In this document: piece by piece, positions 3,090 to 8,801 of the stretch | Numbering within the stretch: the stretch's first letter is position 1 | How the letters are laid out: every line of letters begins with the position of its first letter | Source: Paenibacillus sp. G2S3 | Lineage (GTDB): Bacteria > Bacillota > Bacilli > Paenibacillales > Paenibacillaceae | Assembly: GCF_030123105.1 (NCBI RefSeq) | Contig: NZ_CP126095.1 | Location: 5,828,001-5,892,000, forward strand | Reading direction: 5' to 3' | Length of the DNA: 64,000 bases | Made by a program: the position numbers and the translations under genes | The notes under the pieces: model-generated | Database searches by the model: none | Told to the model about the DNA's origin: nothing | What the model saw: the letters and a program-made list of their open reading frames with translations, nothing else

Positions 3090-3926
3090 CTATCCCTTGC
3101 TTGCACCCGCGGTCAGACCGTCCACCAGGAAACGCTGAAGGAAAATGAACAGCAGCGTGACCGGGAGAGCGACCAGCACCGCTCCGGCAGCGAACAATGT
3201 GAATTCGGTCGAATTACTTTGATTCACCATCCGGAAAAGCCCGACAGCGAGCGTTCTCGTCTCTTCCGTACGCAATACAAGGTCCGCGAATATGAAATCC
3301 ACAAAGCAGCCATTAAATATCATAAGACTGGCATAGGTAAGCATCGGTTTGGACAGCGGGATCATTATAGAGAGAAAAACTTTCATATGACTCGCCCCAT
3401 CCATCCGCGCAGCATCTTCCAGGCTTTTTGGAATAGTATCAAAAAAACCTTTAGCCACAAACACATTCGTAATAATGGCGCCACTACTGTATACGAGAAC
3501 AAGCGCCCAATGGGAATTCAGTAGCCCAAGTGTGTTCAGTAGCACGTAAACTGCGATCATAGCCATGAATCCCGGAAACATTTGCAGCACTAGGAGCGCG
3601 GTCAGTGTCGTTTTTCTACCCTTGAATCGATAACGAGAAATGGCATACGAAGTCAATAGCAACAGAAAGGTGCCAAGTAGCGTAGACAGCGCCGCAACCT
3701 TTAGTGTATTCATGAACCAAATCAAATATTTAGTTTGCTCAAACAGTTCCTTGTAATGAATGAACGTGAAATTTTTAGGAATCAACGAGTCGCTGAACAG
3801 ACTGTTTCCCGTCTTGAATGAAGACATAATAATCCAAAATGCTGGAAAAAGACTAATGAAACTGAGCACAATCAGCAGCAAATGGCTTCCAATCGTTTTA
3901 AACGCTTCTGTCAGTTTTGGCTTCAT
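3090..3926 (-). CDS. mdxG: Maltodextrin ABC transporter permease MdxG/MalG
   Basis: This 278-residue inner-membrane permease has six expected membrane segments. It carries the MalG-type EAA loop (SLEDAARMDGASHMKVFLSIMIPLSKP, near residues 170-196) that docks the ATPase, and it ends in GLTAGASKG, as MalG proteins do. It pairs with MdxF to form the channel for maltose and maltodextrins. Its start overlaps the mdxF stop by four bases, which indicates translational coupling. It is the last gene of the operon. No ATP-binding subunit follows. In Bacillus the shared ATPase MsmX serves such importers from a distant locus. Confidence 0.92.
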   Translation of the reverse strand: MKPKLTEAFKTIGSHLLLIVLSFISLFPAFWIIMSSFKTGNSLFSDSLIPKNFTFIHYKELFEQTKYLIWFMNTLKVAALSTLLGTFLLLLTSYAISRYRFKGRKTTLTALLVLQMFPGFMAMIAVYVLLNTLGLLNSHWALVLVYSSGAIITNVFVAKGFFDTIPKSLEDAARMDGASHMKVFLSIMIPLSKPMLTYASLMIFNGCFVDFIFADLVLRTEETRTLAVGLFRMVNQSNSTEFTLFAAGAVLVALPVTLLFIFLQRFLVDGLTAGASKG

Positions 3927-5230
3927 GCAATCATATCCTCCTCTTTGTAGGATCGCGTTCGGCGGTAGCTCCAGATGGAGAAGGTCGCGACCAGCAGGAA
4001 GATGACAATCCCGATTACGGAAGCAAAGCTGTACTGCGACTGGTTAAGCGCCAGTTTGTAGAGCCAAGTCACCAGAAGGTCGGTGTGACCCGCGTACTGG
4101 TAATTCGGATTGACCGGTTCTCCGTTGGTCATTAGGTAAATGACGTTAAAGCTGTTAATGTTACCGGCAAACTGCATAATCAGGATAGGAGCGGTCGCGA
4201 ACAGCACCATAGGCAGTGTAACCATGCGAAATTTGTAGAATGCCCCAGCTCCGTCCACTTCAGCAGCTTCGTACATATCCCTTGGAATCGTTGTCAGTAC
4301 CCCAAAGGCTAGAATCATGGTCACCGGAATTCCGATCCACATATTAGCCAGAATTACGGTCACCTTAGCCCAGAAAGGATTAGTCAGCCAGGCCACCCCC
4401 TCCAATCCCAAAGCTCTTACATAACTATTGATCGGTCCGAACTGATTATTGAACATATTGCGCATGACGAGCAGAGAAATCATATTAGGAATAGCGAAGG
4501 GAACGATCAGAAGTGTACGCCAAAGCTTTTTCCACCGAACACGGGGCTGGTGAATAAGTACGGCAATGAGCACACCTCCAATGTAAGTCGTCGCAGTAGC
4601 AATAATCGCCCAGATCAGTGTCCACGTCAGCACTCCGCCGAAGGTGGAACTCCATACATCCAGACTTAGCATTTTCTTAAAATTACCGAAACCCACCCAG
4701 TCTACTAGATGCGCAGGCGGTAAAATCGGGTCGGCATAGTTCGTAAATGCTAAAAGCACTGAAAAAACAAGTGGCAATATCGTCAGAAAAACTACAGCCA
4801 CAAAAGGAATCGCTAGTACAAGATAGGCGAAATTTCTACGCCCCATATGTCTGAGCGATTCACCGAATGAATGAATGGGCTCATTCCGGTCGCGCGCAGC
4901 TCCAACTAGGAAGGCGTCTCTGATGTTCAGTAAATGAAAAGCTGTATAAAAAAGCAGCGCCAGCAATGACATCAGACCATTGATCATCATAAATATGGAG
5001 TGATCGCCCTCCACCATTCGGGTTAATTTACCTACCTTGACCATACGGCTTGGGAATTCACCAAGTGTAATCAAGCCCCGCAAATAACCCATTAGATCAT
5101 GAGCAATAAAATAGATTCCAGCAGACCCCACCAGCAGGAATACTAATCCTTTCAGCCACTGTCGATTGAAGAACTGGCCCAGTCCCGGAATAATAGCCGA
5201 GAGTAGCGCTGCGCCTGTTTTTTTGTGCAT
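3923..5230 (-). CDS. mdxF: Maltodextrin ABC transporter permease MdxF/MalF
   Basis: This 435-residue permease has the extra N-terminal membrane region typical of Gram-positive MdxF: a short GLGQFFNRQW element, two hydrophobic helices and a linker, before the six-helix permease core begins near residue 135. The EAA loop is MYEAAEVDGAGAFYKFRMVTLPM. It sits 19 bases after mdxE and overlaps mdxG by four bases. The strong similarity to MdxF/MalF, together with a divergent maltodextrin-cleaving enzyme, supports maltodextrin uptake. Confidence 0.92.
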   Translation of the reverse strand: MHKKTGAALLSAIIPGLGQFFNRQWLKGLVFLLVGSAGIYFIAHDLMGYLRGLITLGEFPSRMVKVGKLTRMVEGDHSIFMMINGLMSLLALLFYTAFHLLNIRDAFLVGAARDRNEPIHSFGESLRHMGRRNFAYLVLAIPFVAVVFLTILPLVFSVLLAFTNYADPILPPAHLVDWVGFGNFKKMLSLDVWSSTFGGVLTWTLIWAIIATATTYIGGVLIAVLIHQPRVRWKKLWRTLLIVPFAIPNMISLLVMRNMFNNQFGPINSYVRALGLEGVAWLTNPFWAKVTVILANMWIGIPVTMILAFGVLTTIPRDMYEAAEVDGAGAFYKFRMVTLPMVLFATAPILIMQFAGNINSFNVIYLMTNGEPVNPNYQYAGHTDLLVTWLYKLALNQSQYSFASVIGIVIFLLVATFSIWSYRRTRSYKEEDMIA

Positions 5231-5249
5231 AGGTCAAATCACCTGTCCT

Positions 5250-6584
5250 TTACTTCGAATCCAGATCGGCCTGAATCGTTGATACGGTCTTATCGAGCGT
5301 CTGCTTAACATCAAGACCCGGGTCGTTCCACAGAGATACAAATGCTGCCTTTAGCGGTTCCCAGACGGATTTGATTTCCGATATGGATGGCATCGGCACA
5401 GAGTGTTGGAACTGCTTGAAGAATCCACTTATAATCGGATCATCTTTAATTACCGGCGCTTCTCCAGCTTCAATGCTCGCAGGAATCGCACCCGTCATTT
5501 CAAAGTTCTTGAGCTGGTTCTCCTTGTTGCTTGCAAAATGCGCGAACAAGCGGCTAGCGACCGGATATGCAGTATAGGAATTGACATAATACGATTTAAC
5601 ACCGGAAAAAGAAACGCTGTCTTCACCGTCAGGTCCCTTCGGAAGAGGCGCCACTCCAAGGTTGATATGATCCTTGAACATCGCTATGGACCAAGGCCCG
5701 TCGATGTTCATCGCCAGCTTGCCTTCCTGAAACAATTGGGTTTTAACGTCATAGGTGATATCTCCTGCATTCAATGGCAGAATTCCTTTTAAGCTCTGGA
5801 GAAAGGTAAATCCTTTGACGGTGCCTTCATTATTCAATCCGATATCCTTGATATTTGTATTGTTGTCACCGTAAATGTATCCGCCGAAGCTGCCGATGAA
5901 TGGATAGCTGTAATACCCGACGAATTCCCACATGATCGCAAATTTGTTCTCTTTCGGCTTATTGTACGTATTGGCAAAAGCGATCACATCCTCCCAAGTT
6001 TTTGGAGCTTCGGAAATCAGATCCTTGTTGTAGAACAGCGCATAGGTCTCCACCGATTTAGGATAACCGTACAGGATACCGTCATAAGTCGATGCCTGAA
6101 TGGCTGTCTCCACCATAGTTGATTTCGTTTCTTCCTCAAACACATCATTTGGCAGAAGCAACCCCGCTTTGACGGCCTGGCCGATCTGGTCATGCGGAAG
6201 AGTCAACACATCGGCGGCTAGTTTGGACGGGCCATCTGTTGCCAACCTTGTGCCCTGATCGCCGCCCGCCATTTCCTCAACCTTGACGGGAACGCCGTAT
6301 TCTTTTTCGAAATCAGCAGCTAACTGCTTCATGTATTCAACCTGCTCCTTGGCCTCCCAAACCGTTAATTCGGCCCCTGACTCCGGTTTCAGCTCCTCCT
6401 CGGCGGGATTCGTTTCATTTGTAGTTCCCCCCGGCTCGTTCACTGCGGAATCCGGGCTTGAATTCGGCTGTGCCGTAGAGTTCCCATTGCCTGAACCGCA
6501 AGCCGTAACCGTCAATGCCAACAGCAGACTTAGGACTAAACTAAATGATACCGCTTGCATTTTAGACCGTTTACTCTTCTTCAT
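5250..6584 (-). CDS. mdxE: Maltodextrin-binding lipoprotein MdxE
   Basis: This 444-residue extracellular solute-binding protein begins with a lipoprotein signal peptide ending LTVTACGSG, so the cysteine near residue 29 is likely lipidated. A Ser/Pro/Glu-rich linker follows, then a MalE-type body with SGAELTVWEAKEQVEYMK, LPHDQIG, a ligand-binding WEDVIAFAN region and the characteristic MNIDGPWSIAMFKD. It captures maltose or maltodextrins for MdxFG. The ribosome site is AGGGGAGATG. A 165-base leader precedes it, carrying a terminator-type hairpin element (6647-6720), so expression is probably controlled by attenuation. Confidence 0.92.
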   Translation of the reverse strand: MKKSKRSKMQAVSFSLVLSLLLALTVTACGSGNGNSTAQPNSSPDSAVNEPGGTTNETNPAEEELKPESGAELTVWEAKEQVEYMKQLAADFEKEYGVPVKVEEMAGGDQGTRLATDGPSKLAADVLTLPHDQIGQAVKAGLLLPNDVFEEETKSTMVETAIQASTYDGILYGYPKSVETYALFYNKDLISEAPKTWEDVIAFANTYNKPKENKFAIMWEFVGYYSYPFIGSFGGYIYGDNNTNIKDIGLNNEGTVKGFTFLQSLKGILPLNAGDITYDVKTQLFQEGKLAMNIDGPWSIAMFKDHINLGVAPLPKGPDGEDSVSFSGVKSYYVNSYTAYPVASRLFAHFASNKENQLKNFEMTGAIPASIEAGEAPVIKDDPIISGFFKQFQHSVPMPSISEIKSVWEPLKAAFVSLWNDPGLDVKQTLDKTVSTIQADLDSK

Positions 6585-6646
6585 TTGCTCATCTCCCCTT
6601 TATTCATAAGTGATCAGACCTAACACGCCTAGAAAAAAAAGAGCAT

Positions 6647-6720
6647 GCAAAAAAGGTACAACCTCATTTGCACAAAGTGCCGAGGTTGTACCTTTTAGGT
6701 AACAGTGCCTTTAATTTGTA
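6647..6720 (-). promoter_or_regulatory. mdxE leader: candidate attenuator element (copy A)
   Basis: Read on the minus strand, this has three parts. First comes ACAAATTAAAGGCACTG followed by TTACC. Then a long hairpin pairs AAAAGGTACAACCTC with GAGGTTGTACCTTTT (15 bp, 16-base loop). Then TTTTTTGC. It lies between the predicted mdxE promoter and the gene. The upstream segment TACCT can pair with AGGTA of the terminator's 5' arm, which would form a competing antiterminator. The same arrangement occurs in the divergent leader at 6939-7008. This is seen in sequence; the regulatory role is inferred. Confidence 0.7.
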
Positions 6721-6756
6721 TGCGTGTTACGAAAAATCAAGTTCGTTCGCCCTCAT

Positions 6757-6784
6757 TCTATATTACCCATAATTTGGATTGCAA
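6757..6784 (-). promoter_or_regulatory. Predicted mdxE promoter
   Basis: On the minus strand there is a -35 TTGCAA (6784-6779), a 16-base spacer and a -10 TATAGA (6762-6757). The transcript would start near 6750, giving a leader of about 165 bases that contains the hairpin element. Confidence 0.6.
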
Positions 6785-6904
6785 TCAGAATAAAGATCCA
6801 AATGGGGCGATTTAATAGCACTTTTCTTATTATTCCTTATATTTCCTCCCATTTTCAATCGCATACTAAATATTCCATATTGTGAATTCATGTGAAATAA
6901 TCCC

Positions 6905-6934
6905 TTGCTTTAATCTTGAGGGGTATGATAAGAT
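6905..6934 (+). promoter_or_regulatory. Predicted cyclomaltodextrinase promoter
   Basis: There is a -35 TTGCTT at 6905-6910, an 18-base spacer and a -10 TAAGAT at 6929-6934. Transcription would begin near 6941, right at the start of the conserved leader element, giving a leader of about 100 bases. An alternative -10 is TATGAT at 6924-6929. Confidence 0.45.
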
Positions 6935-6938
6935 TCAG

Positions 6939-7008
6939 ACAAAATTTAAAGGCAATGAAACCGCCAAGGGTTCAACCTCTGATAATCATGAGGTTGGCCC
7001 TTTTTTGC
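6939..7008 (+). promoter_or_regulatory. Cyclomaltodextrinase leader: candidate attenuator element (copy B)
   Basis: The order is ACAAAATTTAAAGGCAATG, then AAACCGCC, then a hairpin pairing AAGGGTTCAACCTC with GAGGTTGGCCCTT, then TTTTTTGC. The hairpin is a convincing intrinsic terminator (6966-7006) that lies before its own gene. GAAACC (6957-6962) can pair with GGTTC in the terminator's 5' arm. Copy A has different bases in this pair (TACCT/AGGTA) but keeps the pairing, so the antiterminator is supported by covariation between the two copies. Confidence 0.7.
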
Positions 7009-7040
7009 GTTTATATGCCGCGAAGGGATGGAAATTGATA

Positions 7041-8801
7041 ATGATTCAACCAGAAGCCATTTATCATCGTATGGGGCAAAATTGGTCATATGCCTACGAT
7101 GAATCTACATTACATATTCGCATAAGAACTAAACGGGATAACGTTTCACAGATTGATCTTTTCTGCGGAGATAAATACGGTTGGGACAAAACCCATGAGG
7201 TTATTCCCATGCAGCACATGGCTTCTGACAGCTTATTCGATTATTGGCAGGCTGTGGTCCGTCCTGTTTATCGCAGACTCACTTACTATTTTGCACTTTA
7301 TGAAGGAGATGAGGTCCTTTATTATTTGGAAAAAGGCTTCTTCTCAGAGCCTCCAGTAATTATATATGAGGGCCTATTCGACTTTCCTTTCTTGAACCGT
7401 GAAGATGTACACTCCCCTCCAGCATGGGTGAAGGATGCAGTATTTTATCAAATTTTTCCGGAACGTTTCGCAAATGGTGATCCTACAAATGATCCAGCAG
7501 ATGTGTTGGAATGGGGTGGTACACCGAGTCCCCGAAATTTCTTCGGAGGAGACTTGCAAGGTGTACTGGATCATTTGGATTATCTCTGTGAATTGGGCAT
7601 TACCGCCATCTATTTCAATCCTCTGTTCGAGGCAACCACCAATCATAAATATGATATAAAGGATTATTTCTTGGTGGACCCTCATTTGGGGACCAATGCA
7701 TTGCTAAAAGAACTTGTGGACGCCTGTCATTCCAAAGGTATCCGCGTCATTCTAGACGGTGTCTTTAATCATTGTGGCCATACCTTTCCGCCATTTGTTG
7801 ATCTACTCACCAATGGACGATCTTCCCGTTATGCCGATTGGTTTCATGTACGTGAGTGGCCACTACAGGTCATCGACGGAATTCCCACCTATGACACATT
7901 TGCATTCGAGCCTATCATGCCAAAATTCAACACTGAGAATCCTGAAGTCAAAGAATATCTGCTGAAAGTTGGCCGTTATTGGATGGAGGAAATCGGTGTA
8001 GACGGCTGGCGGCTTGATGTCGCGAATGAAGTCTCTCATACGTTCTGGCGACAATTCCGTAATACGATCAAAAGCATTAATCCAGAAGCCTATCTCGTAG
8101 GCGAAATCATGCATGATCCCTTGCCGTGGCTACTTGGCGATCAATTTGACGCCGTGATGAATTACCCACTAACCAATATTCAAATTAATTTCTTCGCTCT
8201 CGGGCAGATCAGTGCTGCTCAATTCTCTCTATCGATAGCTACTATGCTAGCAAATTATCCGCAGCAAGTTACAGAGGCCACTTTTAATCTATTAGACAGC
8301 CATGACACAACTCGTTTTCTGACCCTTTGCGGCGGTGACATCCGAAGATTAAAACTGGCTGTTTTGTTCCAAATGACCTTTCAGGGAGCACCATGTATTT
8401 ACTATGGCGATGAAATCGGTATGGAAGGTAACTATGACCCGGATAACCGTAAATGTATGGAGTGGGACACCCAGAAACAGAACAGGGAGCTGTTCGAATA
8501 CTATCGCTGGACAATCGGTCTTCGTAAGTCGCATCCTGCATTCCGTAGTAGTGGGTTTAAATCGCTGGAGATCCCGGACCACCCAAGGCTGCTTCTATAT
8601 GAACGGTGGGACGAGTTCAACCGTTTCTTAATCGTGCTCAACAATGAAGATGTGTTAGTGGACACCACCATTCCTGTACCTGGGACGAACTCTAAATGGA
8701 TAAACCTAGAGACACAGAAGCGAACAGAAACCTTCACATCATTACTCCATCTGAATCTGCCCGAATTCGGCTATGCGGTATTCCAAGCCGTTAATAATTA
8801 G
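7041..8801 (+). CDS. Cyclomaltodextrinase / neopullulanase (GH13)
   Basis: This 586-residue intracellular GH13 enzyme has an N-terminal beta-sandwich domain (about 1-125, starting QPEAIYHR), as in cyclomaltodextrinases, neopullulanases and maltogenic amylases. The catalytic barrel follows, with nucleophile Asp326 ([10 protein letters not shown]), acid/base Glu355 (LVGEIMHD) and Asp422 ([10 protein letters not shown]). There is no signal peptide, consistent with cleaving maltodextrins or cyclodextrins after import by MdxEFG. The ATG at 7041 fits the family length. A TTG at 7035, six bases after AAGGGA, is an alternative. The frame extends to 6882, but that stretch is the attenuator leader. Confidence 0.92.

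Follow-up and report, generated by a model that had tools for sequence, protein, structure and literature searches.

Hairpin leaders sharing an arm with an intrinsic terminator beside divergent putative maltodextrin/cyclodextrin genes of Paenibacillus: a probable antitermination switch

Riboswitch and T-box leaders form mutually exclusive antiterminator and terminator structures, and protein-dependent antitermination in Bacilli leaders includes GlpP (glycerol-3-phosphate). ANTAR/AmiR-NasR antitermination uses two hairpins with matching hexanucleotide loops. LoaP (dfn, mln), according to excerpts of its description, acts via one small leader hairpin, with a UNCG tetraloop as hallmark and separate from the terminator, and promotes readthrough of intrinsic terminators (PMC12691694). 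The closest layout is that of the RAT sites (BglG/LicT/SacY), for which an extract of one report gives the consensus GGATTGTTACTG-N6/7-CAGGCGAGACC (PMC12628678). In S. mutans bglP, as given in part of the published account, transcription starts at 258, the RAT (262-290) begins 4 nt past that start, and it overlaps the terminator, whose repeat covers 281-361 (PMC1489936).

The window studied here, a stretch of 64,000 nucleotides from Paenibacillus sp. G2S3, holds two leaders that resemble RAT sites: each has an imperfect hairpin of ~27 to 29 nt with internal loops, near the transcription start of sugar genes, and the 3′ half of the hairpin lies in a terminator. The initial annotation had described twin leader elements beside the divergent promoters of an mdxE-type gene and a cyclomaltodextrinase gene, and both copies are present in the sequence where it placed them (Table 1). 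It had also proposed that TACC pairs with GGTA in copy A and AACC with GGTT in copy B. These pairings hold, as the upper helix of a larger hairpin; the AGG/CCU and UG/CA pairings escaped it, so its view of the extent of the element was right for the NACC segment and too short overall. Because AGG/CCU and UG/CA can also pair, the conserved 5′ block becomes the 5′ half of one hairpin of ~27 nt, AGG-CAN-UG-N-NACC..loop..GGUN-CA-A-CCU, in both leaders. RNAalifold, unaided, also returned AGG/CCU, UG/CA, and NACC/GGUN with the CAN/A internal loop from a 23-sequence seed alignment, which came from a pattern search of 60 genomes and includes both window copies. The conserved sequence of the element is AGGCANUG-N-NACC..GGUNCAACCU, and GGUNCAACCU is at once its 3′ half and the terminator 5′ arm, so that the two folds are mutually exclusive. 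Two covariance models were built, R1 from 23 sequences (36 positions) and R2 from 32 diverse sequences.

Table 1. Leader features and genes at the divergent locus of the window, and two further G2S3 copies of the element.
Feature	Position	Strand	Parts and evidence
ABC permease, mdxG-type	3090..3926	-	Pfam BPD_transp_1 E 1.3e-14
ABC permease, mdxF-type	3923..5230	-	Pfam BPD_transp_1 E 1.7e-17
Solute-binding protein gene, 'mdxE'	5250..6584	-	Pfam SBP_bac_8 E 5.9e-42
Intrinsic terminator A	6649..6694	-	AAGGUACAACCUC (6694-6682) pairing GAGGUUGUACCUU, then T6 (6654-6649); from sequence
Element copy A hairpin, mdxE-type leader	6680..6715	-	R2 52.7 bits, E 1.1e-13; seed member
Copy A pairs	AGG 6710-6708/CCU 6685-6683; UG 6704-6703/CA 6688-6687; UACC 6701-6698/GGUA 6692-6689		
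Copy A conserved internal loop	CAC 6707-6705 opposite A 6686	-	
Candidate mdxE-type promoter	6757..6784	-	TTGCAA-16-TATAGA; putative, read by eye
Candidate cyclomaltodextrinase-like promoter	6905..6934	+	TTGCTT-18-TAAGAT; putative, read by eye
Element copy B hairpin, cyclomaltodextrinase-like leader	6945..6981	+	R2 48.3 bits, E 2.5e-12; seed member
Copy B pairs	AGG 6950-6952/CCU 6976-6978; UG 6956-6957/CA 6973-6974; AACC 6959-6962/GGUU 6969-6972		
Copy B internal loop	CAA 6953-6955 opposite A 6975	+	
Intrinsic terminator B	6968..7006	+	GGGUUCAACCUC (6968-6979) pairing GAGGUUGGCCC (6990-7000), then T6 (7001-7006); from sequence
Cyclomaltodextrinase/neopullulanase-like GH13 gene	7041..8801	+	Pfam Alpha-amylase 1.2e-80, Alpha-amylase_N 4.9e-37
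G2S3 third copy (L037)	C1:652711		Before MATE transporter; Pfam MatE
G2S3 fourth copy (L099)	C1:1983425		Before second GH13 gene; 43 bits

Copies A and B sit in the seeds of both models, so their scores are not independent evidence; the third-best R2 site within the 64 kb scored 12.9 bits (E 0.23). Copy A leads into an operon of the solute-binding protein and the ABC permeases, copy B into the GH13 gene. In copy A, as in the family, the 3′ half of the hairpin is the 5′ arm of the terminator. Read by eye, the predicted mdxE-type start lies near 6750, ~35 to 40 nt ahead of the copy A hairpin, and the predicted cyclomaltodextrinase-like start ~7 nt ahead of AAAGG. The name mdxE is reasonable, if unproven: among NCBIfam models the binding protein scores best with GanS (268.8 bits; cut-off, 700), with MalE at 183 bits (cut-off, 291); both lie below cut-off, which makes any substrate assignment tentative. 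The GH13 protein likewise falls below cut-off with maltodextrin glucosidase (354.7 bits) and cyclomaltodextrinase (330.7 bits). A program-made ORF (6882-8801) runs through the element; the likely start of the GH13 gene is the ATG at 7041.

Comparison gives good support to the view that each leader is a transcription antitermination switch, which we consider probable. It builds on the hairpin, the shared arm, the covariation of the upper helix, the conservation across genera, and the target genes, all of them apparent from the sequences and their comparison. A nascent leader RNA would fold the hairpin, with its strongly conserved asymmetric internal loop (CAN opposite A). Unaided, the much stronger terminator would then take the 3′ half of the hairpin as its own 5′ arm, and the transcript would end before the gene; a factor that binds and holds the hairpin would block the terminator and allow the gene to be read. 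We thus infer a default OFF state, an ON state when the hairpin is bound, and a factor acting in trans. The signal is probably tied to maltodextrin or cyclodextrin supply. As a first guess we lean, slightly, toward an RNA-binding protein as the factor, since the element resembles a RAT in being a single small hairpin whose internal loop is conserved and whose apical loop is free.

RNAfold predictions for growing transcripts of both copies give the hairpin first and the terminator after its 3′ arm has been made. In copy A, transcribed from 6720, the outer, middle, and upper helices are in the minimum free energy (MFE) fold at 39 to 45 and 51 to 57 nt, the 48-nt prefix having a different MFE fold; the terminator reaches -28.3 kcal/mol after its 3′ arm is made. 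In copy B, prefixes of 42 to 54 nt from 6939 show the outer and middle pairs and an apical stem that differs slightly from the one above, and the terminator reaches -23.1 kcal/mol when complete. Across the 208 leaders with a T run, the median fold energy is -6.2 kcal/mol for the hairpin and -20.8 kcal/mol for the terminator.

The antitermination switch that the initial annotation had proposed for both leaders is upheld by relatives: the element is conserved before both gene types, and its 3′ half is the terminator 5′ arm in 206 of 220 unique elements, overlap being scored where that half pairs over at least 5 bp with the stretch preceding a T run. Twelve of the 14 exceptions have no T run by the rule used, many through an interrupted T tract. 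In the fourth G2S3 copy, also an exception, the complementary arm is visible by eye. L042 is a real exception, in which the best terminator begins 3′ of the element and the shared arm is unused.

That the pairing is kept while the bases change, as had been claimed from the two copies, is borne out by the upper helix, which covaries both among 187 distinct elements and in a diverse alignment of 32 rows. Pair 6 is UA in 111 of the 187 elements and AU in 72 (AA in 3, a gap in 1); the other upper pairs are mostly kept, through GU, GC, UG, and UA exchanges, with few mismatches or gaps. The lower helices AGG/CCU and UG/CA are nearly invariant, with one compensatory change, in the L127/L317 variant described below. 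The three internal-loop positions are C in 185, A in 171, and A in 183 of the 187 elements; these sets were gathered using conserved letters, so that column conservation is inflated. In the 32-row alignment three pairs have changed on both sides, and 99.0% of cells pair, compared with no more than 47.6% after the partner has been shifted. None of 500 shuffles, which ignore the relatedness of the sequences, matched the covariation score, the paired-cell share, or the count of double-change cells, and 32 of 500 equaled the observed number of pairs with a double change and the number of further pair types.

The terminator 3′ arm tracks these exchanges. Among leaders collected with a rough pattern, the arm opposite GGUA is UGCC (52) or UACC (18), and that opposite GGUU is GGCC (33), GACC (28), AACC (11), GCCC (6), or AGCC (5). 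The U of GGU is retained in 210 of 216 cases, most often facing G (123) or A (83) in the terminator; as the partner is mostly G, it seems to be the upstream A, not the terminator, that holds this U. Two sets of elements are the best single cases of covariation. L102 and L157 show a joint change in all three segments (AGCC, GGCU, and terminator AGCC). In L127 (2272-2313) and L317 (4608-4649), an entirely different apical stem (UUCGGC/GCCGAA) takes the place of the usual one and GGG/CCC that of AGG/CCU, while UG/CA and the internal-loop CAA are retained and the terminator is altered to match. An element of this latter type, in the same-species record L249, sits between GH13 and mdxE-type genes. 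The elements measure 33 to 76 nt, the variation coming from the apical loop. Long apical-loop insertions are seen in L169 (1501-1576, 76 nt) and L128 (3537-3587, 51 nt); the core helices are kept in the RNAfold MFE of L128 and lost in that of L169.

The pattern search matched 22 of 60 genomes, G2S3 included, and the reversed pattern, used as a control, gave 0 matches in all 60. This search and the covariance-model searches are independent evidence for the element. A covariance-model search of Paenibacillus had been suggested in the initial annotation, with a lack of relatives or of covariation as the results that would speak against it; R1 matched 93 of 100 Paenibacillus genomes, and neither of those results was obtained. 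Over the order, R1 matched 210 of 392 genomes in 20 of 49 genera, and over the class 30 of 299, 7 of them outside the order (G2S3 is counted in all three sets). The outside-order matches precede a nucleotidyltransferase in G522, G590, and G666 and a GH13 gene in G450 and G479, and in G676 an IS110-type transposase ORF (Pfam) stands between the element and the nucleotidyltransferase. The match in G571 (L196) lies inside a gene and was counted as chance. At L194 (5121-7816), the element is followed by an IS110-type transposase ORF (Pfam) and then a nucleotidyltransferase, as if an insertion had split leader from gene. R2 matched 7 of 398 genomes over the phylum, none convincingly outside the class; the sole match there (G732, 26.8 bits) is within a protein ORF and was treated as chance.

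An exact-pattern scan of named genomes found at least 119 stretches. The 80 stretches listed come from Paenibacillus, Cohnella, Peribacillus, Neobacillus, Evansella, Paenisporosarcina, records named Bacillus, and three unrelated organisms (Haloarcula, Mameliella, and Ruminococcus), whose matches we take as chance. The copies in distant Bacilli (records named Peribacillus, Neobacillus, Evansella, and Paenisporosarcina) go with single target genes, and viral contigs gave 0 exact-pattern matches that would point to a phage-borne element. G2S3 has four copies with R1 or R2 at E up to 0.001. Around its fourth copy (L161, C1:1976000-1990000), the second GH13 gene is divergent from a second mdxEFG-type operon, beside a 1625-aa pullulanase-like ORF; no model match precedes this second mdxE, and only the GH13 side carries the element. 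Fifteen genomes picked among the R1-negative ones all keep a related GH13 gene, and divergent elements were seen by eye in five loci of R1-negative genomes (L341, L342, L343, L345, and L347). A second GH13 class, with an N terminus near YHVPRDKWAYAYD, showed no element by eye (21 of 24 loci inspected), and the L346 and L348 leaders showed a terminator-like stretch and no element by eye.

The annotation had pictured a switch shared by importer and enzyme. Both do carry the element, and the targets extend further, to a nucleotidyltransferase resembling the lincosamide enzymes (Lnu) and a MATE transporter. R1 was applied to 85 of the first 158 loci plus further named loci, and 279 model matches in the fetched loci were merged, when identical over the element plus 40 nt, to 223 unique ones; targets were called by comparing the 1500 nt that follow each element with four reference proteins in BLASTP. 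The sample is biased, as its loci were chosen for retrieval by these model matches; it comprises 126 cyclomaltodextrinase-like GH13, 55 Lnu-like nucleotidyltransferase, 19 mdxE-type, 3 MATE, and 20 other or unassigned. Some proteins of the GH13 class carry an additional glycogen-binding domain (L293), and the MATE targets are in G2S3 (L037), G001 (L032), and another genus (G210, L185). Among the 20 others are a beta-amylase (L124; GH14 plus CBM25), a pullulanase-X25/CBM48-type protein (L175), the IS110-type transposase case of G676, seven matches near a locus end, and three chance matches. L196 (in a gene) and L266 and L276 (unrelated organisms) were dropped before the covariation, terminator, promoter, and leader-peptide counts; 17 "other" rows were kept in the 220, of which 7 end within 190 nt of the locus end and a few, such as L141, may be chance.

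The nucleotidyltransferase target has ~258 aa and matches NCBIfam LnuF/LnuG at E 2e-6 to 2e-9, far below cut-off, and PDB 3jyy at E 1.7e-5; since these matches are weak, we call the gene Lnu-like and not a resistance gene. It occurs with the element in distant Bacilli in L186, L187, L190, L191, and L195. The L191 protein shares 93% identity with its closest database relative and about 80% with the Paenibacillus ones, which hints that gene and leader were transferred together. In L195, the element and the nucleotidyltransferase are immediately preceded by a MATE gene.

Upstream of the element, the mean best promoter score in the 126 cyclomaltodextrinase (CDase) leaders was 8.83, versus 7.47 for shuffles, and the -10 end falls most often 11 to 13 nt before AAAGG. 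In 18 mdxE leaders no promoter scored above shuffles within about 60 nt (7.61 versus 7.67), and a candidate lies ~40 nt further upstream.

Searches of Rfam, which the annotation had advised with malK leader motifs in mind, returned, among the models searched, no family at threshold at the window locus or in ten related loci. In window positions 5500 to 8500 (E up to 10), no family reached its gathering score and five matches were subthreshold (best E, 0.42), three of them on leader A (two animal miRNA families and PhrS); the ten loci (E up to 1) gave one subthreshold match (BSnc120, E 0.42, L185). We take all of these as chance. No published description of the element was found in the open literature, among the titles and abstract openings of the matches listed. 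This is an apparently undescribed family of RNA switches, mostly in Paenibacillus and its relatives, which seems to decide readthrough of an early stop for starch-breakdown genes and a few others. If this is right, a widespread regulatory RNA family lacks an Rfam match and has a partner outside the three antiterminator protein families tested. It would offer a direct handle on maltodextrin/cyclodextrin control in Paenibacillus and Cohnella, sources of industrial cyclodextrin enzymes, and would tie that pathway to two unexpected proteins, a lincosamide-nucleotidyltransferase-like enzyme and a MATE exporter.

What might bind the hairpin, if anything does? One candidate is a divergent BglG/LicT-type CAT-domain antiterminator that takes the element for a variant RAT, an idea that draws on the RAT-like layout (a hairpin near the start, its 3′ half common to the terminator) and on three CAT-domain matches in G2S3, and that we nevertheless regard as very unlikely. 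The initial annotation had set the LicT/SacY pattern aside on the ground that the second half of RAT is missing. That half is present, as the terminator 5′ arm, with the same overlap as at RAT sites, so the reason was mistaken; the conclusion itself stands, both by sequence and because CAT_RBD (PF03123) was absent from 18 of 32 element-bearing genomes (present in 14), hand-picked with a preference for small or distant ones, although a CAT domain too diverged for PF03123 is conceivable. The element does not follow the RAT consensus GGATTGTTACTG-N-CAGGC..ACC, its own conserved sequence being different. The canonical RAT of G2S3 is a separate site (L162, 7252-7224, minus strand) just upstream of a LicT-type gene; it differs in sequence and is not matched by R2, whose best match in that stretch (15.2 bits) falls elsewhere. 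One of the CAT matches is followed by a PTS IIC/IIB/IIA gene (Pfam) and the other two adjoin, on our reading, IIA-like or PTS-like ORFs. No PTS gene was seen at the window locus, as the annotation had observed. In layout and size the element matches a RAT and would work like one; by sequence it is not a member. A different thought is that it acts on RNA polymerase, or via a NusG-like factor, to give processive antitermination, its terminator overlap being incidental. L042, which retains the element though its terminator ignores the shared arm, would fit, and LoaP, in the excerpted description, provides a precedent with one small leader hairpin (PMC12691694). Yet 206 of 220 elements overlap the terminator, the apical loop is free and variable in sequence and length and is not kept as UNCG, and LoaP exceeds its cut-off in just 77 of the 392 genomes from the order, without G2S3, where the best LoaP-model match (4.6e-22), below cut-off, is probably core NusG; we hold this to be quite improbable. 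GlpP (PF04309) was present in 26 of 33 genomes searched and absent from G2S3 and 6 others, and the element alignments show one hairpin with a free loop, compared with the two of ANTAR systems.

Since CAT, LoaP, and GlpP do not fit, the factor would be a protein outside these three families, or a ligand. A small-molecule riboswitch, in which a metabolite (a glucan, a pseudo-oligosaccharide, or some other compound that the target genes handle) would bind to the internal loop itself and no protein is needed, is our second guess, possible though doubtful. The strong conservation of the internal loop, the pairing of the element with single target genes in distant Bacilli, the lack of a regulator gene that recurs in most loci, and the misfit of the three known families all speak for it; a single ~27-nt hairpin whose apical loop is free would make a small natural aptamer, and a glucan hydrolase, an importer, a nucleotidyltransferase, and a MATE transporter share no single obvious ligand. 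More speculative is its particular form as a one-hairpin riboswitch, with an aptamer of ~27 nt directly sensing a glucan-type sugar or a sugar-like antibiotic and giving one response over importer, hydrolase, Lnu-like nucleotidyltransferase, and MATE exporter in Paenibacillus and other Bacilli. The conserved letters could instead mark an operator in the DNA close to where transcription starts, with an ordinary terminator after it and only incidental RNA pairing. The block AAAGGCANTG is indeed close to the predicted starts in the CDase and nucleotidyltransferase (NTase) leaders, but a length of 33 to 76 nt through apical-loop variation is incompatible with an operator of fixed half-sites, and the compensatory changes in the RNA helix, some matched in the terminator, make this reading hard to credit. 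Leader-peptide attenuation by a translating ribosome is scarcely believable. A variable base does yield ATG in 164, CTG in 19, and TTG in 1 of the distinct elements (3 matches are outside the pattern), with a median of 22 codons from NTG to stop; against this, the stop comes right after NTG in 27 of the 39 distinct NTase elements and in 9 of the 111 from CDase leaders, a quarter of the distances from NTG to stop are no longer than 3 codons, AAAGG is only 2 nt from NTG, and no conserved short ORF was found across the terminator in the NTG frame. The antitermination hairpin, held by a factor in trans, remains the reading we prefer.

A LicT-type gene beside a beta-glucoside-type PTS lies at L051 (827-1767, near C1:5757000), with a canonical RAT just upstream; as it reads in two overlapping frames, the gene may be broken or carry a sequence error.

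When the genes of 124 clustered loci were grouped into 597 families, the 32 most frequent contained no regulator common to the element neighborhoods; the targets and their operon partners led the list. The most frequent regulator-like families in the 124 loci were sensor-kinase-like (8), response regulator (7), and LacI type (6). In L268, an element directly follows a gene (4061-6348) whose domains, Alpha-amylase, Alpha-amylase_C, TIG, and CBM_20, form the set of cyclodextrin glucanotransferases; this gene family is present in 7 of the 124 loci.
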